Shown here: positions 1,575 to 30,937 of the stretch, in pieces
Layout of the letters: every line of letters starts with the position of its first letter
Position numbering within the stretch: position 1 is the first letter of the stretch
Source: Chitinophagaceae bacterium
GTDB lineage: Bacteria > Bacteroidota > Bacteroidia > Chitinophagales > Chitinophagaceae
Reading direction: 5' to 3'
Length of the DNA stretch: 38,861 bases
Assembly: GCA_028288585.1 (NCBI GenBank)
Contig: JAQBNL010000034.1
Location: 1-38,861, forward strand
Notes under the pieces: model-generated
Told to the model about the DNA's origin: nothing
The model's input: the letters and a program-made list of their open reading frames with translations, nothing else
The model's database searches: none
Position numbers and translations under genes: made by a program

Positions 1575-1715
1575 TGATATAGGATTTTAGGGGTAGCCAA
1601 ATACTAAAAGCATAGGGCTTATTAATACTTGACCGGTAAATTCAAGTACAGAAACGTAAGGAGTAGCTATTTATTGTAAAACGTGTAGAAAAAATACTAC
1701 AATGTATATTTTCCT

Positions 1716-3167: not shown

Positions 3168-3188
3168 TGATAAGTTTTTAATAATTCA

Positions 3189-3866
3189 TTATGACACCTG
3201 TACTTCGTCATTAACAATAGCGCCGGTTTCAACTGTATGATGATTTGTATTGCTTTTTCGTTGCCCGAAAAACCGCTTTTGAAATAATAAAATTGCTATT
3301 ACCCCGGTAGATATGGCTGTATCTGCTAAATTAAATATTGGTCTGAAAAATTCAAACTCTTCTCCACCCCAAATGGGTACCCACGAAGGAAAATGTGCAT
3401 TTCTAATTATGGGGAAATAAAGCATATCTACTACTTTACCATGAAAAAATCCTGCATAGCCCTGCTCAGGAAATATTTTAGCAACATTCAAAAGGCTGGT
3501 ACTGCTTTCTTCAAAAATAATTCCATAAAACATGCTGTCTATCAGATTACCAAGAGCGCCTGCAAAAATTAAAGCAGCACACGCTATAAAACCAGGATGA
3601 TATTTCTTTTGAACTATTTGCTTTAAATAAAATATACCAAAAATTACAGCCGCAAGTCGGAATAATGTAAGAATCATTTTGCCCCAGTCGCCACCAAATT
3701 TCCATCCATATGCCATGCCTTCATTCTCTATAAAATAGAGCCGGAACCAATTGCCAATAACGGCATGTGATTCACCGGTATGATAATGTGTTTTTATAAA
3801 GATTTTTAAAACCTGGTCTGCAAGCACCACTAAAAAAATAATTAAAAAAACATTTCTTCCTTTCAC
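3189..3866 (-). CDS. lspA: Lipoprotein signal peptidase (signal peptidase II)
   Basis: LspA is the inner-membrane aspartyl protease that removes signal peptides from diacylglyceryl-modified prolipoproteins. Several hydrophobic segments are visible. The two catalytic aspartates fit the motifs GNLIDS (about residue 110) and FNLADTAI (about 185). At 225 residues it is longer than the enterobacterial enzyme (about 160). The extra length lies mainly between the two Asp motifs (region with YFPIIRNAHFPSWVPIW), an insertion usual in Bacteroidota. The many lipoproteins in this window are its substrates. Upstream lies a 157-base gap containing an inverted repeat, so it probably has its own promoter; TATATTTA, one base off the TAnnTTTG element, occurs just upstream. 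Confidence 0.93.
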   Translation of the reverse strand: MKGRNVFLIIFLVVLADQVLKIFIKTHYHTGESHAVIGNWFRLYFIENEGMAYGWKFGGDWGKMILTLFRLAAVIFGIFYLKQIVQKKYHPGFIACAALIFAGALGNLIDSMFYGIIFEESSTSLLNVAKIFPEQGYAGFFHGKVVDMLYFPIIRNAHFPSWVPIWGGEEFEFFRPIFNLADTAISTGVIAILLFQKRFFGQRKSNTNHHTVETGAIVNDEVQVS

Positions 3867-3951
3867 ATTACTATATTAAGCTGTAAATATAAAGAAAACC
3901 GATGTGAGTAGGAAGTGGGGAGTTGTGAGTAAAATGTTATAGTAGTGAGAG

Positions 3952-4012
3952 GTGAATCGTGAACGGTGAGCACCTGATTTGTGTACTCATCAACTCACCA
4001 TTGACCATTCAC
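3952..4012. repeat. Imperfect 19-bp inverted repeat between lspA and murF-alr
   Basis: The arms 3952-3970 (GTGAATCGTGAACGGTGAG) and 3994-4012 (CTCACCATTGACCATTCAC) pair at 16 of 19 positions around a 23-base loop. Further TGAGT/GTGAG words flank the element from about 3903. There is no clear U-tract next to the stem, so it is not a classic terminator. It resembles the degenerate intergenic repeats found elsewhere in this window. Confidence 0.6.
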
Positions 4013-4023
4013 TCTTCACTATT

Positions 4024-6516: not shown

Positions 6517-6525
6517 TTTATAATT

Positions 6526-7479
6526 TTATTTCACTTCATTATCTGGTGCATCTTCCGGAATATCTATTTTTTTATGATAGATAGAAAAAATTATTGAACC
6601 AACAAGACACACAATAATTACGCTTAACGATATTCCGATAGGGATATGAATATTAAAATATTCTATCAGCATTTTTACCCCTATAAAAACCAATACAATG
6701 GCAATGCCTTGCTGCAGGTAATCAAATTTACTTACTGCGCCTCTCAGTAAAAAGAATAAAGACCGTAAGCCAAGCACAGCAAAAATATTGGAAGTGTAGA
6801 TCACCATTTTATTTTGAGTAATGGCAAATACAGCAGGGATAGAATCTAAAGCAAAAACAATATCAGTTGTAGCCAGTAAAATGATCACTACAAATAACAT
6901 TGTATAATATTTTTTGCCGCCTATTATTTTTGTAAATTTTCCGCCTGCATCTTCGTGTGTAATAGGTAAAAATTTCTGTAACAATACATACACTTTATTT
7001 TTTCCCGGATCAAAATCATCATCCTGCTCAACAAAAAACATTTTAACACCCGTGAAAACAAGGAAGGCGCCAAAGATGTAAAGTATCCATCCGAAATTTG
7101 CTACCAGTGCAATTCCTATTGTTATAAAAATTATTCTAAAAAGTATTGCCATTAAAATGCCGAACAACAATACACGTCCGTAATATTCTTTGTGAACACC
7201 AAAAAAACTAAAGATGAGAATGAATACAAAAATATTATCAATGCTCAGGCTCCATTCCATCAGGTAAGCGCTTACATATTCCACAGCAATTATTTTTCCC
7301 ACATTGTACCAAACAAAAACACCATAGGCCAATGCAAGACCGATCCAAAAAGAAGTTTGAATTAATGCTTTTTTAATAGTTATGCTTTTTGACCGCTTAC
7401 TAAGCAGGCCAAGATCCAATACAACCGCGAACAGCAATACTATCCCAAATACTATATAAGATAATTGTGTAGAAGTCAT
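6526..7479 (-). CDS. TerC/Alx family membrane protein
   Basis: A 317-residue polytopic inner-membrane protein with about nine hydrophobic segments. Family signatures are MEWSLSIDNIFVFILIF and TTDIVFALDSIPAVFAITQ, each holding membrane-embedded acidic residues thought to bind metal. Members such as Alx and TerC are linked to manganese export, pH response and metalation of secreted proteins. The length matches the Alx-type branch. A Bacteroidota -7-like element lies 13 bases upstream of the ATG. murF-alr follows after 9 bases. I looked for a manganese (yybP-ykoY) riboswitch and found no room for one: the whole gap to gldG is 65 bases. Confidence 0.88.
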   Translation of the reverse strand: MTSTQLSYIVFGIVLLFAVVLDLGLLSKRSKSITIKKALIQTSFWIGLALAYGVFVWYNVGKIIAVEYVSAYLMEWSLSIDNIFVFILIFSFFGVHKEYYGRVLLFGILMAILFRIIFITIGIALVANFGWILYIFGAFLVFTGVKMFFVEQDDDFDPGKNKVYVLLQKFLPITHEDAGGKFTKIIGGKKYYTMLFVVIILLATTDIVFALDSIPAVFAITQNKMVIYTSNIFAVLGLRSLFFLLRGAVSKFDYLQQGIAIVLVFIGVKMLIEYFNIHIPIGISLSVIIVCLVGSIIFSIYHKKIDIPEDAPDNEVK

Positions 7480-7492
7480 TTATAATATTGAG

Positions 7493-7500
7493 CAAATATA
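7493..7500 (-). promoter_or_regulatory. Candidate -7 element (TATATTTG) for terC-murF
   Basis: On the minus strand the sequence reads TATATTTG, a full match to the Bacteroidota -7 consensus TAnnTTTG, 13 bases before the terC ATG. No convincing -33 TTTG lies 19-20 bases further upstream, so confidence is moderate. Confidence 0.45.
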
Positions 7501-7544
7501 GGATGGTGGTGAGCAATTAATAATATCCAATGTCAAAGATTGAA

Positions 7545-9245
7545 TTAAACACTATACTTTTTTCTTCTCCAGAACTGGTAGATTAATCCAAATATAAAAA
7601 CCAATAAAACCGGTAAAACAATATTTATGATTTGCCATTGTGTTCTTTCATCCTGTATCTTTTTAGAATCTAATAACCTAAGTGTATAGTCTTTTGATTT
7701 TGCCTCGGTAAGCCCGGAGTTATTAATAAGATAATCGAGGCAATTCTGCAAAAAATCCCTGTTGGCAAACTGGTATTGATATTGGGTTTCCATGGTGTAT
7801 TCATTTACACCCATAGGTAAAGGCTGTCCCTGTGAAATACCATTTAAAACAATATCACCATCAGAAACAATTATCATTTTATTCTCTGCAATAGATGAGC
7901 TTTGAAAGGTGGTGCCGTATCGCTCAAGTGTGTCCATAATATTTAAGGGGAGACGATTTGCATAGAGGGATTTAAATTTCCCTTCCAGCAAAACTCCCGC
8001 AATAACATTCTTCTTTTTGAACTGGGCATCTTCCGGTGCATTCCTGTTTTCCTCGCCGCTGATTAATGCGGGAGTGGCAATGGTTCTGGCATTTGCTGAT
8101 GAACTTAGCAAGATTGTTTTTCTAACATCATCAGATTTTACCGTATCTATTGAATTTACAAACCTGCCTGCAACCAATCCTATATTTTTATTTATTACAT
8201 GATTTGACTTTGATTCGAACAGCGGAAAATAATTCCAGTGCAAAAATTCAAATTGTTTATTTCCGTTTACATCAAAGGGTAAAAAATCGCATTGAAGATC
8301 CATTAACAGGTCAGGATTAATTCTTACTCCATATTTAAAAAGAAGATCTTCAAGATTTAAATTCCTGTCGTATGCAATTACCTGGTTCTTTAATTGAAGG
8401 CTGTCCATTTCTGCATTTAATCTATCCAAAAACCAGATCACTTTGCCACCATGCATTATATATTGGTCGATCTTTATTTTTTCATCTTCAGAAAAAGGAA
8501 TTGTTGGTTTAACGATCATTAATAATTTAAACGTATCAGGAATTACAGGTTCTTTCTTAATATCCATTGTAAAAAGATGGTAATTCCTTTTTAAAACATT
8601 CTCCACAAGATCGTAAGTGTTTGCGCCTGCAGGTTCTCCATTTCCATAAGAATAAGCTATGAGTGGTTTATTATTTTGTGTAAGCTGTTCAATTGCATTG
8701 GCAAACTTATATTCCATTAAAGCCTCAGCGCTGTTTAATTCCTCAGGCGTAATAAGCATTTTTGTACCGGGGTATAAACTTACCGGCAACACCCTTTCTT
8801 TATAATGCACCAGGGCCGCAGGGAAAATAAATTGAGTTTGTTCACCTGTCTTTAATTGCACTTTTAAATTTATCGGCTGTACGCCTAAAGCAACTAATGT
8901 ATCTGCATAAGTTCTGCTGCTGCCCTCAATTTGTTCATCCGGGAAAATAAACCTGTATTGGATATTGCTGCCGCTGTATTCTTTAAACTCCTGCAATAAT
9001 TCACCGGTAGATGAGGCAAGTTTTTTAAAGCCAGAAGGAAATTCACCTTTTAAAAAGATATCTATCTGTACAACATCATCAAGTTTACCCAATAGTTTTT
9101 TTACAGGAGATGAAATAGTAAATCTTTTTTCATTGGTAAGATCAATACGTTTATGAAACTGCGCAGCAAGAAAATTTACCAGGAGTAAAATAATTATCAC
9201 CGGTATCCACCACCACCTGCCTGTTCGTTTTAAAATTGATCCCAT
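7545..9245 (-). CDS. gldG: Gliding motility ABC transporter auxiliary protein GldG
   Basis: A 566-residue protein with one N-terminal membrane segment (about 12-28, WIPVIIILLLVNFLAA), a large extracytoplasmic part and one C-terminal membrane segment (about 540-558, NIVLPVLLVFIFGLIYQFW) ending in basic residues. This layout and RIDLTNEKRFTISSPVKKLL are typical of GldG. The middle part is the DUF4350/ABC-2-associated periplasmic-like domain. GldG works with permease GldF and ATPase GldA, reported as needed for gliding in Flavobacterium johnsoniae; many non-gliding Bacteroidota also carry gldFG. gldF lies 10 bases upstream on the same strand. GldA is not in the window. Confidence 0.9.
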   Translation of the reverse strand: MGSILKRTGRWWWIPVIIILLLVNFLAAQFHKRIDLTNEKRFTISSPVKKLLGKLDDVVQIDIFLKGEFPSGFKKLASSTGELLQEFKEYSGSNIQYRFIFPDEQIEGSSRTYADTLVALGVQPINLKVQLKTGEQTQFIFPAALVHYKERVLPVSLYPGTKMLITPEELNSAEALMEYKFANAIEQLTQNNKPLIAYSYGNGEPAGANTYDLVENVLKRNYHLFTMDIKKEPVIPDTFKLLMIVKPTIPFSEDEKIKIDQYIMHGGKVIWFLDRLNAEMDSLQLKNQVIAYDRNLNLEDLLFKYGVRINPDLLMDLQCDFLPFDVNGNKQFEFLHWNYFPLFESKSNHVINKNIGLVAGRFVNSIDTVKSDDVRKTILLSSSANARTIATPALISGEENRNAPEDAQFKKKNVIAGVLLEGKFKSLYANRLPLNIMDTLERYGTTFQSSSIAENKMIIVSDGDIVLNGISQGQPLPMGVNEYTMETQYQYQFANRDFLQNCLDYLINNSGLTEAKSKDYTLRLLDSKKIQDERTQWQIINIVLPVLLVFIFGLIYQFWRRKKYSV

Positions 9246-9255
9246 AGATTACCAA

Positions 9256-9978
9256 TTATTTTTTATGCAGATTTTTTACCGCTAACAATAAAAAAAAGAA
9301 TATAATGCTGAGGAAATAAATAATATCTCTTGTATCAACTACGCCGCGGCTAATACTGCGATAATGAAAATCAATACCCAGCATCTCTATATAATAATCT
9401 GCTTTGCCCTGCAACATAGGTAACTGGCTTACGGCGCTAAATCCAAAATATAAAATGAGGCAGGCAAATGCACTTATTAAAAAAGCGATAACTGCATTAC
9501 CGGTTAACCCTGAGCAACACAAACCAATAGCAGAAAAAACTGCCGCTAAAAAAAACAACCCAATATATGAACCCATTATACCGCCTGTATCTATGCCACC
9601 ACCTGCAGACAATGATTTTATAGTAAAGACATAAATTAATGTTGGTAAAAGAGAAAAAAGAATTACGGTAAGTATGGCAAAATATTTACCAAGCACTATC
9701 TGCCATTTTGTTAAAGGACGGGTTTGTAAAATCTCAAATGTCCCGGTTCTGAATTCATCGGAAAGAGAGCGCATCGTAATTGCCGGAATTAAAAAAAGAA
9801 GTACCCATGGCGACAGCTCAAAAAATTTGTCCAGGGTGGCATAGCCAAAATCAAAAATGTTGCTGTCTTTTAAAACAAATAAAAACAAGCCATTAACCAG
9901 TAAAAATAAAATGATGGTAATATATCCTGTCAGGCTGCTGAAAAACTGGTGCAGCTCTTTTTTAGCTATCGAAAACAT
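9256..9978 (-). CDS. gldF: ABC-2 type permease GldF
   Basis: A 240-residue inner-membrane permease with six predicted membrane segments. It starts MFSIAKKELHQFFSSLTGYI, with the conserved cytoplasmic loop MRSLSDEFRTGTFEILQTRP near residue 68, characteristic of ABC-2 permeases of the GldF type. It is the first gene of a two-gene unit with gldG (10-base gap) and would act with the ATPase GldA encoded elsewhere. The length is normal for the family. The following non-coding stretch separates it from the divergent small gene at 10267. Confidence 0.9.
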   Translation of the reverse strand: MFSIAKKELHQFFSSLTGYITIILFLLVNGLFLFVLKDSNIFDFGYATLDKFFELSPWVLLFLIPAITMRSLSDEFRTGTFEILQTRPLTKWQIVLGKYFAILTVILFSLLPTLIYVFTIKSLSAGGGIDTGGIMGSYIGLFFLAAVFSAIGLCCSGLTGNAVIAFLISAFACLILYFGFSAVSQLPMLQGKADYYIEMLGIDFHYRSISRGVVDTRDIIYFLSIIFFFLLLAVKNLHKK

Positions 9979-10198
9979 GCCGCAATTTAACGTTTAAGGA
10001 GAAACAAAATATGATTTTATAAAGTATAACATGCAGCATTTATGTTAAAGAACCTGTCATTAGTAAAGAACATTTTATCCAGGTTAAAATTCCTCTGCTA
10101 TTTACCACAATCAATAATGAATCTCTGAGAATAAAACGATTGTTCAGGAAGGCAATCTCATTGATTTTTACAACAGTTTACCGAAACCAACAGCATAG
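9979..10198 (+). other. Non-coding stretch upstream of an orphan terminator
   Basis: No convincing coding frame is visible on either strand between the gldF start and the terminator at 10199. Part must hold the gldF promoter (minus strand; a partial match CATATTTTG near 10010). The plus strand ends in a strong terminator with no gene before it, so a short plus-strand RNA is possible. The 5' end cannot be placed. Confidence 0.3.
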
Positions 10199-10224
10199 TC
10201 CCGCATTTTTTTGCGGGATTTTTT
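10199..10224 (+). terminator. Rho-independent terminator without an obvious gene
   Basis: The stem TCCCGCA (10199-10205) pairs with TGCGGGA (10212-10218) around a T-only loop and is followed by a run of six T on the plus strand. The minus strand has no U-tract after the stem, so the terminator acts on plus-strand transcription. It lies about 43 bases before the small gene at 10267. Confidence 0.75.
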
Positions 10225-10266
10225 ATGGAGTCTTTTTCTTTTTGCATCCTATAAAAAATCTTAATT

Positions 10267-10502
10267 ATGAAACGATTAAAAATTTGCCTTACAGGTAGTA
10301 TGCTATTATTTTCAATAGCAGTATTTTCTCAGAAAAAACATAAGTTACCTCCGCCACCGCTACCATCTCCGCCTGAAATAAAAGCTATAGCACCAGTTGC
10401 CCCAAAGAAGTAACTGTTGCGGAATTGAGCGTACCACCCACACCACCAACACCACCTGTTCCACCACCTCCGCCACCCCCAGCGCCAAAGAATGATCAAT
10501 AA
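10267..10502 (+). CDS. Small secreted proline-rich protein, needs a -1 frame change
   Basis: The ATG at 10267 opens a frame with a good signal peptide (MKRLKICLTGSMLLFSIAVF, cleavage expected after SQ), then a proline-rich tail (HKLPPPPLPSPPE). The zero frame stops at 10411-10413 after 48 residues. The -1 frame continues without a break as KEVTVAELSVPPTPPTPPV, through a seven-proline run, to NDQ and TAA at 10500-10502, for about 78 residues in total. At the junction (10401-10407) sits CCCAAAG, phased as C CCA AAG, an exact X XXY YYZ slippery heptamer. The change could be a programmed -1 frameshift, a lost base in a C run (four C instead of five) in a decaying gene, or a sequencing error. A shared terminator follows. 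Function unknown; composition suggests a periplasmic proline-rich peptide. Confidence 0.55.
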
Positions 10503-10508
10503 TAAAAA

Positions 10509-10531
10509 GCCTCCCGATAAAATCGGGAGGC
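10509..10531. terminator. Bidirectional terminator between the proline-rich gene and iscA
   Basis: A perfect 10-bp stem, GCCTCCCGAT (10509-10518) with ATCGGGAGGC (10522-10531), has a three-base loop, an A-rich left flank and a T-rich right flank. It sits between two convergent genes and can end transcription from both. Confidence 0.85.
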
Positions 10532-10556
10532 CTTAATATTTTTCTAACTTAAAATT

Positions 10557-10886
10557 TTATACTGCAAAGCTTTCGCCGCAACCGCAGCTCCGGCTTGCAT
10601 TAGGATTGCTGAAATAAAACCCTTTTCCATTTAGCCCGTCACTAAAATCCAATGTTGTATTAACGAGATATAAAAAACTTTTAAGATCGGTAACCACTTT
10701 TATTCCATTGTCATCAAACTCCTGGTCCATTGGTTTTTTCTCATTATCAAAATCCATTTTATAACTCAGTCCTGAACATCCACCACCAACAACACTTACA
10801 CGCAAAAAATAATCATTGGAAGGAATTTTTGCTTCCTCCATTAATTTAGAAACCTTTTGTTTTGCTTTATCACTTACGTATATCAT
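10557..10886 (-). CDS. iscA: A-type iron-sulfur carrier (IscA/ErpA family)
   Basis: A 109-residue cytoplasmic A-type carrier that receives Fe-S clusters from the scaffold and passes them to target enzymes. The three cysteines of the family are present: one in VGGGCSGLSYKMDF (about residue 37) and the CGC pair in SRSCGCGESF at the C terminus. The length matches IscA/SufA/ErpA. It is the last of the trio iscS-iscU-iscA on the minus strand, but a 73-base gap with a degenerate repeat separates it from iscU. The context favours an ISC-type role; ErpA-like function cannot be excluded. Confidence 0.9.
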   Translation of the reverse strand: MIYVSDKAKQKVSKLMEEAKIPSNDYFLRVSVVGGGCSGLSYKMDFDNEKKPMDQEFDDNGIKVVTDLKSFLYLVNTTLDFSDGLNGKGFYFSNPNASRSCGCGESFAV

Positions 10887-10904
10887 AAAGAATCGCTTTA
10901 TACT

Positions 10905-10959
10905 ATAAGCTTTATGCTATACGCAATAAGCGTGAAGCATGCAGCATACAGCCTGTAGC
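10905..10959. repeat. Degenerate inverted/word repeat between iscU and iscA
   Basis: The 73-base gap is made of recurring words: AAGCTTTATGCTATACGC, then GCGTGAAGCATGCAGCATAC and CTGTAGCTT. TGCTATACGC pairs with GCGTGAAGCA at 8 of 10 positions. It may fold as a weak hairpin in the iscU-iscA message. It looks like the repetitive intergenic material seen elsewhere in this window. Confidence 0.45.
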
Positions 10960-11379
10960 TTAATGAACTACACTTTCTTCAAACTTAATTTTCTCCATAC
11001 CATTCTTTGCACGGTAATCGTTGATGGCTGATTTAATTGCATCTTCTGCCAGAACAGAACAGTGAATTTTTACAGGAGGAAGATTAAGTTCTTCCACGAT
11101 ATCCATGTTATCGATCTTTAATGCATCATCAACACTTTTACCTTTAAGCCACTCTGTAGCCAATGAAGAAGAAGCAATTGCAGAGCCACATCCAAAAGTT
11201 TTGAATTTTGCATCTGTAATCATTCCCGTTGCTTCATCAACCTGTATCTGGAGACGCATAACGTCGCCACATTCAGGAGCGCCAACCAAACCGGTCCCTA
11301 CATTTTTTGAAGACTTATCAAGTGTTCCAACATTTTTTGGATTTTGATAGTGGTCAATTACTTTATCTGAGTATGCCAT
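10960..11379 (-). CDS. iscU: Iron-sulfur cluster scaffold IscU
   Basis: A 139-residue scaffold on which [2Fe-2S] clusters are built from IscS-derived sulfur. The three ligand cysteines are present: GAPECGDVM (Cys37), KTFGCGSAIASSS (about 63) and KIHCSVLAEDAI (about 106). The conserved Asp after the first Cys is present too. The loop LPPVK, the HscA chaperone recognition motif, is kept even though no hscA or hscB gene lies nearby. It begins 33 bases after iscS, so co-transcription is likely. The length is slightly above E. coli IscU (128) because of a short C-terminal tail. Confidence 0.95.
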   Translation of the reverse strand: MAYSDKVIDHYQNPKNVGTLDKSSKNVGTGLVGAPECGDVMRLQIQVDEATGMITDAKFKTFGCGSAIASSSLATEWLKGKSVDDALKIDNMDIVEELNLPPVKIHCSVLAEDAIKSAINDYRAKNGMEKIKFEESVVH

Positions 11380-11412
11380 ATTATTTGGTTTATTCGTTTA
11401 ATAGTTTATTAG

Positions 11413-12630
11413 TTAATGCGCCGCCCATTCAATTTTATTAAGATCAATTCCTTCTTTATACATCTCCCACAACGGGCTCATCTCTCTTAATTTTAAAACC
11501 GTGTTACTAACCTGCTCAATTGTATAATCTATTTGTTCGTCTGTTGTAAATCTTCCCAAACCAAAACGCAACGAAGAGTGTGCCAGATCATCTCCCAAAC
11601 CCAACGCTTTTAATACATACGAAGGTTCCAGGGAAGCGGATGTACAAGCTGAACCTGAACTCAACGCAATATTTTTATTAAAGCCCATCAGTAAACCTTC
11701 ACCTTCTACATGCTTAAACGATATATTAGTAACCTGTGGCAAGCGATGTTCCCTGCTTCCATTTACATAAGCTTCTTCCAGTTTCATTAATTCGGTTTCG
11801 AGCCTGTCTCTCATTTTGCTTATCCGTGCATTATCACTTTCCATATCAAGCATACAAATTTCGCAGGCTTTTCCAAAACCTACAATACCCGGAACATTTA
11901 AAGTGCCGCTACGCATTGCTCTTTCGTGGCCGCCGCCATCCATCTGTGCAGTAACTTTTACCCTTGGGCTTTTTCTGCGGACATACAATGCGCCAACCCC
12001 TTTTGGCCCGTACATTTTATGAGCGCTGAATGCCATCAGGTCAATACCATCAGTTTGTACATTAACAGGAATTTTACCCACTGCCTGTGTGCCATCCGTA
12101 AAAAATAATGCTCCATGCTTTTTGGCAATAGTGCTTATTTCTTTTACAGGCTGTATTGTACCTATCTCATTATTTGCATACATAATGGCTACCAGTATTG
12201 TGGTTGGCCTCATAGCAGCTTCCAGTTCTTTCAGATCAATTAAACCTTCTTTATTAACCTGTAAGTACGTTACTTCGCCGCCCAGTTTTTCAATGTGCTT
12301 GCAGGTATCCAGAACAGCTTTATGTTCAGTTGTAGCTGTAATTATATGATTGCCTTTTTGGGCATACATTTCAAAAACGCCTTTTAAAGCAAGATTATCA
12401 GCTTCGGTAGCGCCTGAAGTAAAAATTATTTCTTTGGGATCAGCGCCAATTAATTTTGCTACCTGCTCACGGGCATAATCAACCGCTTCTTCTGCCTCCC
12501 AGCCAAAAGGATGATTACGGCTTGCAGCATTACCAAAATGTTCGGTAAAATAAGGTATCATAGTCTCCAGCACACGTGGATCCATTGGCGTGGTAGCATT
12601 GTTATCTAAATAGACGGGTAACTTCAACAT
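11413..12630 (-). CDS. iscS: Cysteine desulfurase IscS
   Basis: A 405-residue PLP enzyme that takes sulfur from L-cysteine as an enzyme-bound persulfide and hands it to IscU. It starts [17 protein letters not shown]; the PLP lysine is in [17 protein letters not shown] (about 207), and the active-site cysteine is in [17 protein letters not shown] (about 330), with the group I signature loop. The length equals E. coli IscS (404). It heads the iscS-iscU-iscA set. A TAnnTTTG element lies 17 bases before the ATG. The IscR regulator, ferredoxin and Hsc chaperones of the proteobacterial operon are absent here. Confidence 0.96.
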
Positions 12631-20022: not shown

Positions 20023-21762
20023 TTAAAAATCCAGTTTCCAAACCTGGCTTGATATTACACCGTTTACTTCTCCTCCTGCTATATAAATTGTATTGTTATA
20101 AGAAATAATTGAGGCCAAAACCAAATTTTGCGGTAATTCACCTATTGACCATAAATTAGTATCAAGATCATAAATGTCAAATCTTGCTTTAAAAACCCCA
20201 TAGTAACTTCCTCCAAAGAAAATCAACTTATTGTCTTTTCTTACTGCAGTTATTCCATCTTTAGCTTCGGATAGGCATTCAAAGGAAGTACTGTTTGTTG
20301 CAATATTTTTTATTTCAACAGACCCTGTAACACCATAATCATTAATTGTCGCATCCCATAAAATCCCGCCGGCCCAGTAAATTTTATTATTGGCACTAAT
20401 AGCACCCATTTCCCCTCTTTCCATATTTAAACTATCAAAGGAAACTGTATTAGATGAAGCGTCATAAATATCTATTCGTTTAGAAAGATGACCGCCTGAA
20501 CCAGAGTGAATACCTACGCCTCCACCGGCAAAAAATATTTTATTACCCGCTGTAGCAGCCTGGGATATATGTCTTGGCTCACTTAGTGAGGATGTAGACC
20601 AAACATTTGTTACTGCATCATAAATATCTATTCTTGCTGAGGGATAATTATTATCGCCGCCGGCAAAAACCACTTTATTACCTGCAGAAGCGCCAACCGG
20701 ACTTCTCTCACTGCCTAATTGAGCACGGGTCCATGTATTACTGGATGCATCATATATATCTACGGCAGAACTGCTGACACCACTATATTGCCATTCACCT
20801 AAACCATTATTTTGCTGAACGCCACCACCGGCAAAAAATATTTTATCTCCAAGAACGGCAGAGCCAATTCCAAATCTTCCTTCGGATAGTTCTGCGGTGG
20901 ACCATGCATTTGTTACTACATCATAAATATCTATCCTTGATGTTGAAGGAGAATTATTTCCCGGCGATAGCCAACCTCCGGCAAATAAAATTTTAGTGCC
21001 TGCAGCAGCAACCGCAATCTTTGACCTCGCCTGTGATAGTGCGCCTATCGGAATAAGCCTGACTGGTATTACCGGTCTGCTTACCGTGGATATTACATTT
21101 ACTAAAACTGTATCCATACCTGTAGCCCCGTTATTATCAGTAACTTTTAATATGAACATATTAATGCCGGTAGCAAGATTACTAACCTGTGTTATTGGCG
21201 CACCAGGGTTTAATATATTGCCCTTCCCTGTCCATAAATATGATGTAATAAATCCGTCGGGATCAAAGGAAGAGGTTCCTCTTAAAGTAATACTTATAGT
21301 AACCCCGCTGCATAATGTTTGATTAGTTTGAATTATAGTATCATTTCCCGCCCTGGCAACAGGAGGGATGTTACCGGATTGAGTAATTGTATTTACTGTG
21401 ATCTGAATTGTATCTTTTGATGATAGACCTCCATTATCTGTTACTTTTAATTCAAACTGATAAACTCCTTTTACCAGATGATCAGCTTTTGCCAGGACAT
21501 TGGTTGAATTGGTAATATTGAATGAAGAAGACCCAGAGATTTTTGTCCATTGATATGCTACAATAGTTCCGTCCGGATCGAAAGATGAATTACCATTGAG
21601 TAAAATGCTATCAGTTGGCAGAGTAATCGTTTGGTCTGCACCCGCAATAGCAACGGGAAACTTATTAATATCACAATCAAGACAGAGGAATTGTTTTTGG
21701 CAGGATAAAAAATAAGCAGTGGGTAAAAGAAAGAATAATAAAAGTTTAATAAACAGTTTCAT
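20023..21762 (-). CDS. Kelch-repeat lipoprotein with two PKD domains
   Basis: A 579-residue surface lipoprotein. Signal peptide with lipobox: FFLLPTAYFLSC, then QKQFLCLDCD. The first PKD domain lies at about 38-125 (GADQTITLPTDSILLNGNSS, AYQWTKISG), the second at about 135-230 (SSFDPDGFITSYLWTG). Then come about seven kelch blades ending in repeats such as KIFFAGGGV, KVVFAGGD and KLIFFGGSYY, each followed by a RIDIYD-type strand, so a full seven-bladed propeller is likely. It is a paralogue of the gene at 23064-24419 with one extra PKD domain and is the last member of the minus-strand lipoprotein array. Binding of carbohydrate or protein at the cell surface is inference. Confidence 0.85.
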   Translation of the reverse strand: MKLFIKLLLFFLLPTAYFLSCQKQFLCLDCDINKFPVAIAGADQTITLPTDSILLNGNSSFDPDGTIVAYQWTKISGSSSFNITNSTNVLAKADHLVKGVYQFELKVTDNGGLSSKDTIQITVNTITQSGNIPPVARAGNDTIIQTNQTLCSGVTISITLRGTSSFDPDGFITSYLWTGKGNILNPGAPITQVSNLATGINMFILKVTDNNGATGMDTVLVNVISTVSRPVIPVRLIPIGALSQARSKIAVAAAGTKILFAGGWLSPGNNSPSTSRIDIYDVVTNAWSTAELSEGRFGIGSAVLGDKIFFAGGGVQQNNGLGEWQYSGVSSSAVDIYDASSNTWTRAQLGSERSPVGASAGNKVVFAGGDNNYPSARIDIYDAVTNVWSTSSLSEPRHISQAATAGNKIFFAGGGVGIHSGSGGHLSKRIDIYDASSNTVSFDSLNMERGEMGAISANNKIYWAGGILWDATINDYGVTGSVEIKNIATNSTSFECLSEAKDGITAVRKDNKLIFFGGSYYGVFKARFDIYDLDTNLWSIGELPQNLVLASIISYNNTIYIAGGEVNGVISSQVWKLDF

Positions 21763-23063: not shown

Positions 23064-24419
23064 TTATAACTCAACCCGCCAGACCGCACCTGCCCTGATT
23101 ACATAAACATTTCCACCGGCAGAAATAACAACTGTGTCATCGGAAAAAATCTCTGTTATATCCTTATAAGACCATACATCTGTTGATGCATCATAAATGT
23201 CTATACGGTTATTACTGATGAAAAGCATTTTTTGTCCGGCAGCGGCGGCTCCATTTAGTACTGTTGGTCGGCTCAAATTAGCAACATACCAAGTTTGTGT
23301 GTTATTATCATAGATGTCTACCTTACTGGTATACTGAGGATAGAATCCGCCGCCTGCAAAAAATGCTTTATTATTTAGTGTAGCACCCCTAAGCAGACCA
23401 CGGCTTTCACTTAATGATTGAACAGACCATAAATTGGTGGTGCCATCATATACATCCACATTTGTACCACCTCCACCTGCAATCAATACTTTATTTCCAA
23501 CAGATGCAGAAACAAAGTTACTCCTGGCGATGCTTAATGAAGCTGTTGTCCAGGAATTGGTGATCACATCAAACATAAAAGCCTTTGGTGTAGTAAAAGG
23601 ATTAGATCCGCAAAAAATTGCCTTATTACCTGCAACAGCAGTTGTTCCATCCCAACCATACTCAAAAGTTATTTCTTGCGGTAATTCTGTAGTGCTCCAT
23701 TTATTAGTAGAAATATCGTAAATATCAACACGAGATGAAAGTTCTATATATCCCCAGTACCCACCGGTCCAATTGTGTCCACCCCCTGCAAACAAAACTT
23801 TGTTGCCAACTACTACAGCTCCAATATCAGTACGGGCTAAACTTAGTTCTGCAGTTGACCATGTTTTTGTAGTTAGGTCATAAATGTCCACTCTTGAAGA
23901 AACCGGTATATCGTCCGATGCTGTTTGCATATACCCACCGGCAAAAAATATTTTATTTCCTGCAGTTGCAGTTGCTACATTATATCTTCGAATAGAAAGT
24001 GCACCAATAAGATTTAAACTAGAAACACCCCCGGGTATTCCAGAAAGCACAGTTACAACAACCTTTGCTTTTGCCGAAGCCCCATCATTATCAAGTACTG
24101 TTAGTTCAAACTCGTAGACTCCGGCAACGAGATTATTAACTGTAGTTACAGCAATATTTGTATTTGCTATTGTAAAAGATGAAGGCCCCGAAAGCTTGGT
24201 CCAGAGATAGCTTACAATCGTACCATCTGCATCTCCACCACTACCATAAAGTTTAATACTATCTACAGGAAGTGTAATGGTTTGGGGATTTCCCGCATTG
24301 GCAAAAGGCGGTTTATTACCATTAGGAGCAACGGAAGAAGAATCAGCTTTTTCTTTTTTGCAGGAAGTAAATACAAATATTGTTATTAAAAAGAAAGCTG
24401 CAAGTTTTATATGTTTCAT
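23064..24419 (-). CDS. Kelch-repeat lipoprotein with one PKD domain
   Basis: A 451-residue lipoprotein. Signal peptide and lipobox: KLAAFFLITIFVFTSC, then KKEKAD. One PKD domain at about 38-128 (GNPQTITLPVDSIKLYGSGG, GVYEFELTVLDNDGAS). It is followed by about seven kelch blades, with strands KIFFAGGY, KVLFAGGGH, KAIFCGSNP, KVLIAGGGG and KAFFAGGGF alternating with RVDIYD or KVDIYD. The last two blades are degenerate (KMLFISNNR, NVYVIRAG). It is a paralogue of 20023-21762. It lies between the two small lipoprotein genes with gaps of 24 and 21 bases, which suggests one transcript. Surface binding is inference. Confidence 0.85.
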   Translation of the reverse strand: MKHIKLAAFFLITIFVFTSCKKEKADSSSVAPNGNKPPFANAGNPQTITLPVDSIKLYGSGGDADGTIVSYLWTKLSGPSSFTIANTNIAVTTVNNLVAGVYEFELTVLDNDGASAKAKVVVTVLSGIPGGVSSLNLIGALSIRRYNVATATAGNKIFFAGGYMQTASDDIPVSSRVDIYDLTTKTWSTAELSLARTDIGAVVVGNKVLFAGGGHNWTGGYWGYIELSSRVDIYDISTNKWSTTELPQEITFEYGWDGTTAVAGNKAIFCGSNPFTTPKAFMFDVITNSWTTASLSIARSNFVSASVGNKVLIAGGGGTNVDVYDGTTNLWSVQSLSESRGLLRGATLNNKAFFAGGGFYPQYTSKVDIYDNNTQTWYVANLSRPTVLNGAAAAGQKMLFISNNRIDIYDASTDVWSYKDITEIFSDDTVVISAGGNVYVIRAGAVWRVEL

Positions 24420-25082: not shown

Positions 25083-26468
25083 TCATTTTAAAAACCTGAT
25101 ATGTTCATTCATAAAATTAGCAACGGCACTTCCCTGTATTGCACCGGCAGCAATTGAAGAAGGATAATGAAGCCCGGCATAAATTCGTGATTGTCCTGCC
25201 TCGCTTGCCGCATCATAAAAAGAATTATAGCTTCTTGCAGGAAGACTAAGAAAATCATATGTGTGATCAGTGAAAGAATAATTATTGCCAAATTCCATTG
25301 ATAATACATTGGCTGCTGCTGCTGAAAAAGTGGAGTGAGCAGATGGGTACTCGGGATGATTAGGTGTTGTGATCAAAGAATTCCATGTTGGATGTGCCAA
25401 CACTGACCTGATATAAGTAATGGGCCTGATATTGTTATAAGTATATTTAGATTTCCAGCAACTTATTCTTGCGTCACTTTGCGTAATACCCATTTTTGCA
25501 TACACCAATGCAGCTTTGTCAAGCATTGCAGCATTACTCTCGTGATCCAGAACCTGTAAAAAAATGGAAAGCCAGTGTGCATGACCACCGCCGGGAACAT
25601 CTCTCCAGAATATACCCTGCGCTGTTTGGTCGGCAGTGAGAGATTGTGAAATAGTATACAGGTTATTGGCAATAGTATAAAAATCAGATGAAGCGGCTGT
25701 TGAAAATGGAGGAGGCGGTGGTAAAAAAGAAGCAGTAACACTGCCTGCCATCAGTGGCCTGTTATTACCCCAATAAGGATTTTGAGGTGCTAAAAACCCA
25801 AGAGCTGTTTTTTCCCAAAGCCCTGCTCCTACAGGTATTGTATAGGGCGGTTGAACAGTTAGTGAACCATCTGTTTTCGACCAATCAAATACACGTTGCG
25901 CTACATCCTTACCAAAATCAACCGAACGTTGAAAGGTTTCAACATTAACTTCATTTTGATACTGTGCATTTAAAGCTGCTTCAAGAGAATCGGTAGATGT
26001 TTTATCAGAAGCAGGAATAGCAGGATAAAAATTCCTGATCATTGCTGCAAAAACTGCATTAGCAGAGCTTGGCCAATGATAAGCAAAACCAGAAACAGTA
26101 GCAGGCATAACAGGCATTTGATCCAGCTGCCCTGAAAGTGTTTGATAAGCCGGCATTCCCGGCAGCACTGCTTCATATAATGCAATGCTGCTATATGCCC
26201 AATGTTGCATCATAATAAAATTATTGAGTGAGTTAGGATTGGCCCGTAAAAGACGCAAATCAAAATTTATCCACTTCTGAACTACTTCTGAAGAAAAAGT
26301 ATTGGTTTGTTTTAAATGTCCATACAATTTATCTGCATTATTATTTGGTGCAGAAATAATTGCTTCCTGCTCCTGCCTGATATCTTTTTTACATGCATCG
26401 AAAAAAATGATACAAAGAATTACAGTTGTTATCCACCCGAACGATAAAAATTTAATGGCTGATTGCAT
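25083..26468 (-). CDS. PAP2/vanadium haloperoxidase superfamily lipoprotein
   Basis: A 461-residue exported lipoprotein (MQSAIKFLSFGWITTVILCI, lipobox FFDAC, then KKD). The C-terminal third carries all three superfamily motifs: KYTYNNIRP (Lys341, Arg348), YPSAHSTFS (His378) and SRIYAGLHYPSS (Arg428, His434). These form the vanadate/phosphate site of vanadium haloperoxidases and acid phosphatases. Secreted bacterial members of this length occur in Bacteroidota; halogenating versus phosphatase activity cannot be decided from sequence. The frame is open up to an ATG at 26561, but the residues before 26468 are not signal-like and a TAnnTTTG element at 26507 lies inside them, so the start at 26468 is chosen. 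It is divergent from the kinase operon. Confidence 0.87.
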   Translation of the reverse strand: MQSAIKFLSFGWITTVILCIIFFDACKKDIRQEQEAIISAPNNNADKLYGHLKQTNTFSSEVVQKWINFDLRLLRANPNSLNNFIMMQHWAYSSIALYEAVLPGMPAYQTLSGQLDQMPVMPATVSGFAYHWPSSANAVFAAMIRNFYPAIPASDKTSTDSLEAALNAQYQNEVNVETFQRSVDFGKDVAQRVFDWSKTDGSLTVQPPYTIPVGAGLWEKTALGFLAPQNPYWGNNRPLMAGSVTASFLPPPPPFSTAASSDFYTIANNLYTISQSLTADQTAQGIFWRDVPGGGHAHWLSIFLQVLDHESNAAMLDKAALVYAKMGITQSDARISCWKSKYTYNNIRPITYIRSVLAHPTWNSLITTPNHPEYPSAHSTFSAAAANVLSMEFGNNYSFTDHTYDFLSLPARSYNSFYDAASEAGQSRIYAGLHYPSSIAAGAIQGSAVANFMNEHIRFLK

Positions 26469-26506
26469 GATTATAAATTTTGAAGGGAGAAGATCATTTA
26501 GAGAAA

Positions 26507-26514
26507 CAAAAGTA
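26507..26514 (-). promoter_or_regulatory. Candidate -7 element (TACTTTTG) for the haloperoxidase-like gene
   Basis: The minus strand reads TACTTTTG, a full TAnnTTTG match 38 bases before the ATG at 26468. It lies within the longer open frame that starts at 26561 and argues for the shorter protein. Confidence 0.45.
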
Positions 26515-26711
26515 TTTTCATGCACCAGCGAAAATTTTTTATTTCGGCAGCCTGTATTCATTGCATAGCAGACACCTTAACAACCAACTCCATTACCGCC
26601 TGTCGACGACAAACTGCATTTGCAGAAAAAGAAAGGTTACTTGCCTAAAAACATGAATAAACCCATGAATTGAAAAAGTGATTGTGTACTTTCATATATC
26701 AACCTTAGCAT

Positions 26712-27905
26712 TTGAATATTTATGATTTCATATTTTCAGATGATCGTCACTATCGCTTTTGGCGGCACTTCCTTTTCTGGTTTACATGGTGCCTTTATTT
26801 TGCCGTTACCTTTTTAGTACCTACTTATTGGGTACCTGCATGGAATCTGAATGGCCCAATGCCGCAAATTGAAAAGTATGGTATCTTAATTTCCTGCCTG
26901 CGGATACTGATGAACAGTTTGCTGATGACAATAGTGCACATGGCTCTTGTGTATGGAATTCTTTATTTTATTTTACCACGATATCTTTCTAAAAACAAGA
27001 ACCAGTTTATTACAACCGTCATGTTAGTAATGTTCATTGCTGTTGTGGCCTGTTTTAATTATTTAAATTTTCTACTCACTTTTTATACCAGCACCCGGAT
27101 GGGATTTTTTGATAAAATGCCCGGAATTGATTTCATAATTCCTATTTGGGCAAGGCAGATAATATTTAATTATCCGACTGTAGTTGGTTTTGCTGTAGCT
27201 ATTAAACTCTTAAAACGCTGGTATCTTAAACAAAAGGAAACAGAGGAGTTAACGCGTGGAAAAATAAATGCCGAATTGATATTATTAAAGGCACAGGTGC
27301 ACCCGCATTTTTTATTCAATACACTCAACAATATTTATTCATTTATATTAAATGGATCACCAAAGGCACCAGGTATGATCAAAAAATTATCCGGGCTGCT
27401 AAATTATTTTCTGAATGAATGTAATCATACGCTTGTACCATTACAAAAAGAGATCTTAATGATACAGGATTATATGGCATTGGAAAAGATCCGCTATGGC
27501 GATTCATTGAGTATGAGTTTACATATACACGGGAATGTAGGTAATAAATTGATTTCACCTTTACTACTAATACCGTTTGTTGAAAATAGTTTTAAACATG
27601 GCACTAGTCGAATGCTGACTCACCCCTGGGTAACGCTGGAAATAAACATTGAGAAAGATTCATTAGAATTTAAATTATCCAACAATAAACCTGACAGCAA
27701 TAATGAAGTGCCTTCTAAAAAGGGACTAGGTCTTAATAATGTAAAGAAGCGACTGCAAATACTTTATCCTGATACCCATTCATTACATATTGTTGAGAAT
27801 GCTATGAGCTACGATGTTGCCATGAAACTTGTATTGCATACGCCTGCTGAAAAACAAAATAATATTCACATCACAAAAGAAAAAAAGATTTATGAGCTGG
27901 CATGA
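26712..27905 (+). CDS. LytS-type sensor histidine kinase
   Basis: A 397-residue membrane kinase. Four membrane segments occupy about 18-165, followed by a short coiled linker (KQKETEELTRGKINAE) and the His-kinase domain LLKAQVHPHFLFNTLNNIY, with phospho-acceptor His199. The ATP-binding part has PFVENSFKHG (N box) and KGLGLNNVKKRL (G box), so it should be active. The start is a TTG at 26712 (reading MNIYDFIFSDDR), supported by alignment with the ATG-started next protein (MSWHEFVFSDKR). A weak -7-like TACTTTC lies 18 bases upstream. The gene overlaps the next kinase gene by 14 bases. It is expected to phosphorylate the LytTR regulator at 29036. No known sensor domain; the membrane segments may sense the signal. 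Confidence 0.88.
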   Translation: MNIYDFIFSDDRHYRFWRHFLFWFTWCLYFAVTFLVPTYWVPAWNLNGPMPQIEKYGILISCLRILMNSLLMTIVHMALVYGILYFILPRYLSKNKNQFITTVMLVMFIAVVACFNYLNFLLTFYTSTRMGFFDKMPGIDFIIPIWARQIIFNYPTVVGFAVAIKLLKRWYLKQKETEELTRGKINAELILLKAQVHPHFLFNTLNNIYSFILNGSPKAPGMIKKLSGLLNYFLNECNHTLVPLQKEILMIQDYMALEKIRYGDSLSMSLHIHGNVGNKLISPLLLIPFVENSFKHGTSRMLTHPWVTLEINIEKDSLEFKLSNNKPDSNNEVPSKKGLGLNNVKKRLQILYPDTHSLHIVENAMSYDVAMKLVLHTPAEKQNNIHITKEKKIYELA

Positions 27906-29049
27906 ATTTGTTTTTTCAGATAAACGCACACAGCGTATAAGCCGCCATTTAATATTTTGGTTACTGTGGTGGATGTATTTTGCTGCAACGTATTACTACT
28001 ACCTGCAGGTGGGATTACAAAAAATTGATTTTGGAGATCTTACCACAATTTTGTTGATCAACTCATTATTGCTTGTTGTTGTTCATGCATGTGCCTGTTA
28101 TGTTTTTATTTATATTTTACTTCCCCGCTTTTTATTGAGATCAAAGTACACGGCACTTACAGCGGGAATCATTTTATTAAGCGCTTTTCTTCTTGCTTCA
28201 GGATATTTCATCCACAAATTTATTTTTCCTTATATAGATTCGGCATTTAATTATAAGACTCAAACTTTTAATAATACAATATGGTGGACAAGTATCAATT
28301 CAGTTTTATTAAATGCACCAAAAGTAATTGCAGCTGCTGCTGCTATAAAACTGGTTAAACGCTGGTATATTAAACAAAAAGAAAAAGAGCAGATTGAAAG
28401 AGAAAAATTAATTACTGATCTACAGTTGCTGAAGGCACAGATACATCCCGGTTTTCTTTTTAGCTCACTTGATCATATTTATTTGTATGCCAAATCAAAC
28501 TCTGCAGTGGCCCCTGAATTGTTATTAAAACTTTCTGATCTGTTAAGCTATATGCTGTACGAATGTGATGAACCGCAAGTTGCTTTGGAAAAAGAGCTGA
28601 ACATGATGAAAGAATATATGTACATGGAAAAGATGGGATATGCTGATACTTTGGAATGTGAGACAGAAATAAAAGGAGATACCAATAATAAATTAATTGC
28701 ACCATTACTATTATTGCCATTTATTGAAGACAGTTTTAAACATTGCAACAACCAATCAGAACAATCCTGGATTAACCTGCATATCAGTATTCAGAATGAT
28801 ACCCTTACAATGAAGTTAATGAATGGAATTAGCCTGACACACTCCATTGAACTTACAGATGAAATTTTGAATGTGCAGAAAAGATTAGAATTATTATATC
28901 CGGGCAAACATGAATTAAAGATATATGCAGAAGAGGAAATTTATATAATGCTATTAAAAATTGATCTGGATGACAGACACATTCCTCACGCAGTAATATC
29001 CGCTGATTTGAATAAACAGGAACTTAAACCAATGTATGCAGATCAATAA
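27892..29049 (+). CDS. Degenerate LytS-type kinase (pseudokinase)
   Basis: A 385-residue paralogue of the preceding kinase with the same membrane layout and linker (KRWYIKQKEKEQIEREK). The catalytic residues are gone: HPHFLFN is replaced by HPGFLFSSLDHIY (Gly187 instead of the phospho-acceptor His). The N box PFVENSFKHG is PFIEDSFKHC (Asn to Asp), and the GLGLNN box is absent (SIELTDEILNVQKRL). It should therefore neither bind ATP normally nor be phosphorylated at this site. The frame is intact and the fold is kept, so it is probably a functional partner rather than a pseudogene. The frame is open further upstream, to an ATG at 27829, but the ATG at 27892 matches the paralogue start. It overlaps both neighbours by 14 bases. 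Confidence 0.87.
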   Translation: MSWHEFVFSDKRTQRISRHLIFWLLWWMYFAATYYYYLQVGLQKIDFGDLTTILLINSLLLVVVHACACYVFIYILLPRFLLRSKYTALTAGIILLSAFLLASGYFIHKFIFPYIDSAFNYKTQTFNNTIWWTSINSVLLNAPKVIAAAAAIKLVKRWYIKQKEKEQIEREKLITDLQLLKAQIHPGFLFSSLDHIYLYAKSNSAVAPELLLKLSDLLSYMLYECDEPQVALEKELNMMKEYMYMEKMGYADTLECETEIKGDTNNKLIAPLLLLPFIEDSFKHCNNQSEQSWINLHISIQNDTLTMKLMNGISLTHSIELTDEILNVQKRLELLYPGKHELKIYAEEEIYIMLLKIDLDDRHIPHAVISADLNKQELKPMYADQ

Positions 29050-29824
29050 AAAAATTAGATGCCTCGTTATTGATGATGAACTTCCGGCAAGGGACGTTCT
29101 TCAAAAACATATCGCGGGAGTAAAAGTATTGGAGCTGGCAGGCACCTGTAGTAATGCAGTAGAAGCTCTTTCATTTTTGCAATCTAATACTGTTGACCTG
29201 TTGTTTCTTGATATTGAAATGCCTCACATTCTTGGTACTAACTTTATACGAACATTAAAAAATCCTCCTAAAGTTATTTTTACAACAGCATACAGGAAGT
29301 ATGCTATAGAAGGTTTTGAGCTTGATGCCGTTGACTACCTGCTTAAACCTATTGGCTTTGACCGTTTTTTAAAAGCATTAAATAAAATTCTGCAACTGGA
29401 TCTTCAAAGTAATACAGTTACTAATGCTACACCTGAAACTAATCCCGATCCTCCACAGCCTTTTGTTTACTTCCGTGTGGATCGTAAAATGATGAAAGTA
29501 TTGTTTAATGATATTTTATACATCGAAGGACTAAGAGATTATGTGAAGATATTTACGGCTACAAAAACCATCGTAACCAAACACCTTCTCTCATCGCTGG
29601 AAGAAATGCTGCCTGCAGATGCATTTTTACGCATTCATCGCTCCTACATTATTTCCATAAGTAAAATTGATTCGTACAATACAGATACAATTGAGATTGC
29701 TAAAAAAGAATTACCTGTTGGCCGCTTATTCAAACATGATGTAAGTAAACTTCTCAATGCCTCAACGCTTCACACCAATACAAATGTGAAAACAAAAAAT
29801 AAACAGGGTAATGATAATGTATGA
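29036..29824 (+). CDS. LytTR-family response regulator
   Basis: A 262-residue cytoplasmic regulator. Receiver domain 1-125: acidic pair Asp13/Asp14 in CLVIDDELPARD, phospho-acceptor Asp59 in VDLLFLDIEMP, Thr in FTTAYRKYA and Lys in DYLLKPIGF. A linker follows, then a LytTR DNA-binding domain (about 150-250): YFRVDRKMMKVLFNDILYIE, GLRDYVKIF and FLRIHRSYIIS. The gene begins inside the pseudokinase gene (14-base overlap), so translation of the three is probably coupled. Its likely target is the adjacent outer-membrane protein gene or the divergent haloperoxidase-like gene; I did not find a convincing pair of direct repeats to mark a binding site. Confidence 0.92.
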   Translation: MQINKKIRCLVIDDELPARDVLQKHIAGVKVLELAGTCSNAVEALSFLQSNTVDLLFLDIEMPHILGTNFIRTLKNPPKVIFTTAYRKYAIEGFELDAVDYLLKPIGFDRFLKALNKILQLDLQSNTVTNATPETNPDPPQPFVYFRVDRKMMKVLFNDILYIEGLRDYVKIFTATKTIVTKHLLSSLEEMLPADAFLRIHRSYIISISKIDSYNTDTIEIAKKELPVGRLFKHDVSKLLNASTLHTNTNVKTKNKQGNDNV

Positions 29825-29857: not shown

Positions 29858-30937
29858 ATGAAAAAGTTTTTCTTTCTATCGTTTGCTATGTTATTTATTA
29901 CAGTAGCCGCATACACGCAGGGTTGTGTAATAGTTCGTAATATTTCCGGGTTCGGGCAATACAACCTTACAGACAATGCATTCTCCACATCAAACTGGCA
30001 AATGAATGTAACCACACGATATTTTAAATCGTTTCGTGATTACAAAGGCACTACTGACCAAAAAACTCCTGCCATTAATCAATCCATTAACCATGTTTTT
30101 TCAATGGATATATCAATAAGCCGAATACTTGATAAAGGATGGTCGTTCAATTTCAGCTTACCAATTACATCTAATTCAAGATCTGCAACTACAGAGCATG
30201 GAGGCGCTAATACAACGAGACATATAACACATTCCTTTGGTATTGGTGACATCCGGTTTGTTACTTATAAATGGCTGATAGCTCCCACAGTAAAACAAAA
30301 AATAAATTTTCAATTAGGCCTGGGCATTAAATTACCAACCGGTGATTACAAATACCAGGATTACTTTTATAAAAATGATTCCACCAAAACTTTAGCCCCG
30401 GTAAATCCATCTATACAACTTGGCGATGGAGGTACAGGCATCATTACAGAACTAAATACATTTTATATTTTTAATAAGCACATCAGTCTTTATGGGAATT
30501 TATATTACCTCATCAACCCGAGAGAACAAAACGGGACTTCTGCAACAACTGGTAAAACAGCAACAACATTACAGATCAAAACGGGCAGTGATATAAATAG
30601 TGTGCCTGATATATATTCTATGAGAGCTGGTGCTATCATTAATTTTGAAAAAGTTTCTTTTTCAGTTGGCATAAGAAAGGAAGGTATTCCGGTTAATGAT
30701 GTTGTAGGAGGCAGTAATGGAAACAGGCGAGCCGGTTATAATTTATCTTTCGAACCGGGAATAATTTATAAAATGAAAAAGATGTCTGTGTATGCATATG
30801 TACCGGTTATCATGTCGCGAAAAATAAAACAGTCAGTTCCTGATAAACTGGCAACAAAGATCACCGGAGTGGAAACAATAACCCAAGGTGGATTTGCCGA
30901 TTACCTTGTGTTTATTGGTGCACAGGTTAAATTTTAA
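29858..30937 (+). CDS. Outer-membrane beta-barrel protein
   Basis: A 359-residue exported protein. Signal peptide MKKFFFLSFAMLFITVAAYT with cleavage expected after QG. The mature part alternates aromatic and polar residues in the manner of a beta barrel: WQMNVTTRYFKSFRDYKG, GWSFNFSLPITSNSR, INFQLGLGIKLPTGDYKYQD, and a last strand ending AQVKF, with the C-terminal Phe usual for outer-membrane proteins. It resembles barrel proteins annotated as transporters in Bacteroidota; the closest family cannot be settled by eye. It starts 33 bases after the response regulator stop, and no terminator was seen between them, so it belongs to the same transcript and may be the output or partner of the signalling genes. 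Confidence 0.78.
   Translation: MKKFFFLSFAMLFITVAAYTQGCVIVRNISGFGQYNLTDNAFSTSNWQMNVTTRYFKSFRDYKGTTDQKTPAINQSINHVFSMDISISRILDKGWSFNFSLPITSNSRSATTEHGGANTTRHITHSFGIGDIRFVTYKWLIAPTVKQKINFQLGLGIKLPTGDYKYQDYFYKNDSTKTLAPVNPSIQLGDGGTGIITELNTFYIFNKHISLYGNLYYLINPREQNGTSATTGKTATTLQIKTGSDINSVPDIYSMRAGAIINFEKVSFSVGIRKEGIPVNDVVGGSNGNRRAGYNLSFEPGIIYKMKKMSVYAYVPVIMSRKIKQSVPDKLATKITGVETITQGGFADYLVFIGAQVKF

Follow-up and report, generated by a model that had tools for sequence, protein, structure and literature searches.

The operon analyzed here encodes an active LytS-type histidine kinase, a catalytically degenerate paralogue of it and a LytTR response regulator, and this pairing of one active with one dead kinase recurs among related bacteria, so that it is more than the curiosity of a single locus. 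We propose, with moderate confidence, that the two kinases form a two-subunit receptor, probably a heterodimer, in which the first kinase (K1) would serve as phospho-donor and the second (K2) as allosteric co-sensor subunit. The unit is located in a stretch of 38,861 nucleotides from a Chitinophagaceae bacterium (contig JAQBNL010000034.1), here referred to as the window, and comprises the following genes:

26712-27905, + strand: K1, 397 amino acids, TTG start; active LytS-type (PF06580) membrane histidine kinase
27892-29049, + strand: K2, 385 amino acids counted from the ATG at 27892; pseudokinase paralogue of K1
29036-29824, + strand: LytTR response regulator, 262 amino acids; receiver and LytTR DNA-binding domain

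K1 and K2 overlap by 14 bases, as do K2 and the regulator gene, which confirms the overlapping kinase, pseudokinase and LytTR unit described in an earlier sequence-only reading of this DNA. A mechanical ORF call placed the start of K2 at a TTG at 27829, ahead of the ATG at 27892. The motifs HPHFLFN (containing the phospho-acceptor His), ENSFKHG (N box) and GLGLNN (G box) were all read in K1, as claimed before. The same reading had described K2 as a full-length frame of 385 residues with Gly in place of His (HPGFLFSS), the sequence EDSFKHC and no G box, and our analysis agreed in every point, the GxG/G box being absent. The two kinases were 37% identical and both matched the Pfam family His_kinase (PF06580; 1.2e-24 for K1, 1.8e-16 for K2), while the regulator matched Response_reg (1.4e-18) and LytTR (1.9e-19). 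K1 belongs to PF06580, carries His together with the N and G boxes and is adjoined by a receiver-bearing LytTR regulator, which are two features of a LytS/LytTR system. K2 retains the family and fold (PF06580 and a structural match to GanS) and lacks the phospho-acceptor His, as expected for a pseudo-histidine kinase.

Neither K1 nor K2 had a Pfam match to the 5TMR-LYT input domain at E 0.001, unlike the membrane part of LytS and BtsS. We therefore assign K1, as a PF06580 kinase whose membrane part is of another type, to a LytS/LytTR-like system. Searches against NCBIfam gave nothing above cut-off for K1, K2 and the two neighbouring genes described below (PAP2 and beta-barrel-like). The predicted structure models were monomeric and weak, with a mean pLDDT of 57.7 and values mostly below 50 in the membrane parts. 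The CA region of the K2 model had block pLDDT values of 63-89, with poor values elsewhere, and the best structural match of this model (of low overall confidence) was to 6swj, the kinase domain of GanS, at E 2.0e-07. The GanS chain 6swj was also the only match of a pseudokinase profile to the PDB sequences.

In total, eleven PF06580 matches were present in this genome. Nine had an intact H-box motif with His; K2 was one of the remaining two, and the other was the leading gene of a further tandem pair:

contig C24, stretch 4500-12000, 817-4910 within it: second tandem unit (L042) in the order beta-barrel-like gene, degenerate kinase, active kinase, LytTR regulator

The order of the two kinases in L042, degenerate copy first and active copy second, is the reverse of that in the window, and the regulators of both units were 60% identical. 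The degenerate kinase of L042 has lost the Asn after His, the N box and the first Gly of the G box. It kept the His itself, so that K2 is alone among the eleven matches in lacking this residue. In the domain classes counted by a published survey, His was missing from 0.9% of HisKA and 0.3% of HisKA_3 domains, figures in which PF06580 is uncounted (PMC12632262). Given this rarity in HisKA and HisKA_3 and the single case among eleven matches, the loss of His in K2 is unlikely to be due to chance.

Seven loci were of the window type (window, L048, L107, L108, L109, L110 and L111). The K2 frame was intact in the window and in all six orthologues, at 45-65% identity to the window. His was lost in all seven, the residues at this position being G, G, G, G, A, D and D. 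The sequence-only reading had listed loss of His, a change from N to D in the N box and loss of the G box, and had proposed to examine whether these are conserved. This held for the His position, whereas the change from N to D was found in two of the seven loci (window and L108) and remnants of the G box persisted in L048 (GNGL) and L110 (NGL), so that the listed losses are unevenly conserved. Purifying selection on K2, expected by the same reading, was borne out: NG86 dN/dS values, computable for part of the orthologue pairs, were 0.09 for K2, 0.07 for K1 and 0.06 for the regulator between the window and its nearest relative L107, with dS saturated at 1.8 to 3.1. Mean pairwise identities among the seven K2 sequences were 0.41 in the membrane part, 0.64 in DHp and 0.46 in CA; the corresponding values for K1 were 0.40, 0.71 and 0.53. 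A missing His combined with an intact frame in seven of seven loci and a low dN/dS is unlike a decaying gene.

To place the unit among its relatives, K2 was searched against 99 related genomes and the regulator against 394 genomes of the family. Loci were picked from the matches by similarity, with the addition of the window, L042 and L047, and the 63 loci read, a non-random sample for this reason, consisted of 28 pairs (counting the fusion L127) and 35 single kinases. The best 23 of the 97 listed regulator matches among the 394 family genomes were all at tandem loci. From the other 74 listed matches 28 were read, and three of these were at pairs (L126, L127 and L144). Every pair read included a dead kinase and none of the single-kinase loci did, which is independent of how the kinases were labeled. 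An intact second kinase in close relatives, named beforehand as evidence against a kept role of K2, did not occur in any pair read. That related bacteria show the same pairing points to retention of the dead copy as a useful subunit and not to a gene in decay.

The catalytic motifs were counted in the 63 loci and in loci added later, including three pairs from other families. The labels pseudo and active rest on the same motifs, so that the count describes the pattern and is no test of it. The phospho-acceptor His was missing from 28 of 30 dead-partner rows and replaced by G (5), D (9), R (6), A (2), E (4), I (1) or T (1). The two rows that retained it, L042 and L051, had lost other motifs, and the L051 frame lacked the first part of the profile. 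None of the 30 rows kept His, the Asn of the N box and both Gly of the G box together. The active kinases at pairs comprised 32 rows, one of them a fragment without the His region and one the extra kinase of L115, and His was present in all 31 scorable rows as well as in 50/50 single kinases. The first Gly of the G box was also absent from 5/32 active rows and 2/50 singles, and its loss alone therefore proves no kinase dead. The fragments L059_1 and L119_2, the locus L231, the distant kinases L229, L230, L120_3 and L127_1 and the fused pseudokinase half of L127 stood outside this count.

Beyond the family, a class-wide search of 395 genomes was performed with a profile built from 24 pseudokinases, and ten stretches outside the family were read. 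Three of these, from three other families (L219, L220 and L221), had two adjacent listed matches, and each carried one active and one dead kinase. The regulator came first in L219, the active kinase in L220 and L221. The other seven, chosen for a higher score or other points of interest, contained single active kinases, with two separate systems in L223. An order-wide search with the regulator in 396 genomes gave no match at E 1e-80 beyond the family of the window. The distribution was patchy even within genera, an orthologue being present in 3/6 and 1/7 genomes of two of them. Two loci deviated from the common arrangement. L115 (135-5453) carried three kinases, with an active kinase and a beta-barrel-like gene directly ahead of the pseudokinase, active kinase and regulator; the partner of this first kinase may be located outside the stretch. 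In L231 (3442-4683, - strand) a pseudokinase-like gene was found with no active partner or regulator within 6 kb at a contig end.

The locus L127 contained a single open frame of 624 amino acids (4414-6288, - strand) that joins a pseudokinase half to an active kinase. Residues 1-226 correspond to the membrane and DHp part of a pseudokinase (IDPGFLF) and end after DHp with no ATPase domain; residues 247-616 form a complete active kinase. Although a single case, this fusion is the strongest indirect sign that both kinases would act as a unit and that the dead CA domain may be dispensable.

A quick tree of 90 rows placed the seven window-type pseudokinases in one clade (support 100) and their active partners in another (97). 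A branch with a support of 98 set apart the pseudokinases placed first in their operon, whose active partners grouped together with the extra active kinase of L115 (99). All pseudokinases with the exception of L144 were on one side of a branch with a support of 46, and a single pseudokinase clade including L144 was not rejected (p-AU 0.813), long branches limiting this tree. From these sequences the pseudokinases may have had one or two origins. Distances were compared for 24 of the 28 pairs, leaving out L059, L119, L127 and L144. Those between pseudokinases and those between their active partners were correlated with r 0.77, a value reached by 0/5000 permutations (uncorrected for kinship), compared with 0.66 for active kinase and regulator and 0.53 for pseudokinase and regulator. 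The nearest neighbour of pseudokinase and active partner agreed in 16 of the 24 pairs. In the first-placed type divergence was faster for the pseudokinases (mean tree distance 2.93) than for their partners (2.01), and in the window type both were alike (1.36 vs 1.37). The correlated divergence of both kinases would agree with a joint complex.

Taken as a whole, the recurring pairing is likely functional. In the arrangement that we favor, K1 would donate the phosphoryl group to the LytTR regulator. K2, a pseudokinase retained as a subunit, would pair with K1 via DHp and membrane helices and tune it allosterically as a co-sensor. The putative targets of control would be two neighbours, the PAP2 gene on the divergent side and the beta-barrel-like gene downstream. 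A heterodimer of this kind would possess one His and one working CA domain only. With autophosphorylation in cis it would be half-active, with K2 as a possible allosteric co-sensor; in trans it would be dead and K2 would act as a brake. That K2 is such a dominant-negative brake, which forms dead heterodimers and sets a threshold by titrating K1, appears unlikely to us. The dead partners have lost catalytic residues in DHp as well as in CA, which would kill a trans-phosphorylating heterodimer, and the overlapping genes could fix the ratio of K1 to K2. However, the 1:1 fusion in L127 would then be locked in the off state, unless the active halves of different molecules pair with each other, and it thereby favors the cis option with K2 as co-sensor.

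K2 homodimers could instead bind or dephosphorylate the LytTR receiver, as a reverse sensor or phosphatase of the kind proposed for DivL, an explanation that we consider rather improbable. It would fit with DHp as the best conserved part of K2. In HisKA kinases, the Asn four residues past His is tied to phosphatase activity. This Asn was found in 31/31 scorable active rows and 50/50 singles but in 3/30 pseudokinase rows, with Ser in K2, and its loss from 27 of the 30 argues against K2 acting as a phosphatase. DivL provides a precedent for the binding of a regulator by a pseudokinase (PMC5361649). Recent decay of a duplicated kinase, finally, is hardly credible. Catalytic residues do differ among relatives, and one kinase was split into two pieces at 4/28 tandem loci (L059, L119, L123 and L126), which may reflect decay or assembly error; two of these splits hit the active partner. 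Against this stand the intact and diverged frames of the window-type loci with dN well below dS, and the occurrence of one dead partner at each pair read, across genera and families.

We regard as evenly balanced the broader proposal that two-subunit receptors built from tandem active and dead LytS-type kinases are a recurring class in bacteria, the dead kinase being kept for its membrane and DHp helices. If true, kinase-pseudokinase receptor heterodimers would have a bacterial counterpart, which occurs in several gene orders and, in one case, as a natural fusion. The subfamily II ethylene receptors of plants resemble K2 in having degenerate histidine kinase domains and working beside active relatives; they differ in being eukaryotic, with another sensor domain and no LytTR regulator. 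Control of one kinase by another via direct contact, as proposed here for K1 and K2, is known from RetS and GacS, although RetS is a hybrid kinase and neither LytS-type nor a tandem partner. DivL, by contrast with K2, is not known to be a tandem paralogue of LytS type with its gene next to that of its kinase. DivL of Caulobacter shares with K2 the kinase fold and a replaced His (Tyr in DivL), and it modulates another kinase, CckA (PMC5361649; PMC4211667). It differs by sensing phosphorylated DivK, in which PAS domains play a role (PMC5361649). PMC11481889 mentions as one possibility that a hybrid kinase lacking His forms a heterodimer with another kinase.

The LytS/LytTR systems BtsS/BtsR and YpdA/YpdB of E. 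coli have in common with the present operon a PF06580-type kinase, a LytTR regulator and a membrane-embedded sensor. As described they contain one kinase, to which this operon adds a second, dead one. For BtsS, phosphorylation at His382 and dimerisation have been published (PMC10653868). A paper from 2014 stated that bacterial two-component pseudokinases had been the subject of few studies (PMC5361649), and we found no paper on tandem pairs of LytS kinase and pseudokinase in the open-access literature, the subscription literature being mostly outside the scope of the search. Pseudo-histidine kinases as such are already known, and the tandem LytS pair of active and dead kinase would be a new form. 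About thirty diverged pairs, in which the genes of the dead subunit, its partner and the regulator are neighbours, provide a natural data set. With them it can be tested directly whether a histidine kinase is able to function as a hetero-receptor, what regions of the dead subunit are important, and whether the sign of control depends on autophosphorylation in cis or in trans.

The surroundings of the operon contained the following elements:

29858-30937, + strand: beta-barrel-like gene, 359 amino acids; outer-membrane beta-barrel-like by inspection, with a weak MipA match below cut-off
25083-26561, - strand: PAP2-superfamily gene, divergent from K1; predicted lipoprotein and candidate regulated neighbour
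26601-26625, + strand: conserved stretch around AACTGCATT upstream of K1, in the gap to the divergent gene; candidate part of an operator or promoter

Together they suggest which genes could be regulated. The true start of the PAP2 gene is probably inside the listed ORF. Within the stretches read, a beta-barrel-like gene was found beside 11/28 pairs and 0/35 singles, and a PAP2 gene at 9/28 pairs and 4/35 singles. Homologues of the beta-barrel-like gene were present in 125/394 genomes. The eight nearest (54% identity or more, window included) were all at tandem loci; two further tandem-linked copies (G186 and G374) were more distant, and a minority of the remaining homologues was read.

The stretch with AACTGCATT was invariant in five aligned upstream regions of window-type loci, out of six that were testable: it was not found in L110, and L111 begins too close to a contig end. 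A 13-base form with two or fewer mismatches was located upstream of K1 in the window, L107, L108 and L109, again not in L110. It was also scattered in other loci, including sites immediately ahead of the first kinase gene of L114 and L116, and the stretch is therefore not clearly limited to window-type loci. Direct repeats of the LytTR type and the LytTR consensus were considered as upstream site of K1 as well and had no match at the window locus, where the other conserved stretch is present.

Genes of predicted lipoproteins, as judged from their starts, adjoin the PAP2 gene between 20023 and 25040 (- strand). One of them (23064-24419) carried PKD and Kelch repeats according to Pfam. The gene at 20023-21762 belonged to the same homology cluster, and members of this cluster were also located near L048, L109 and L110.
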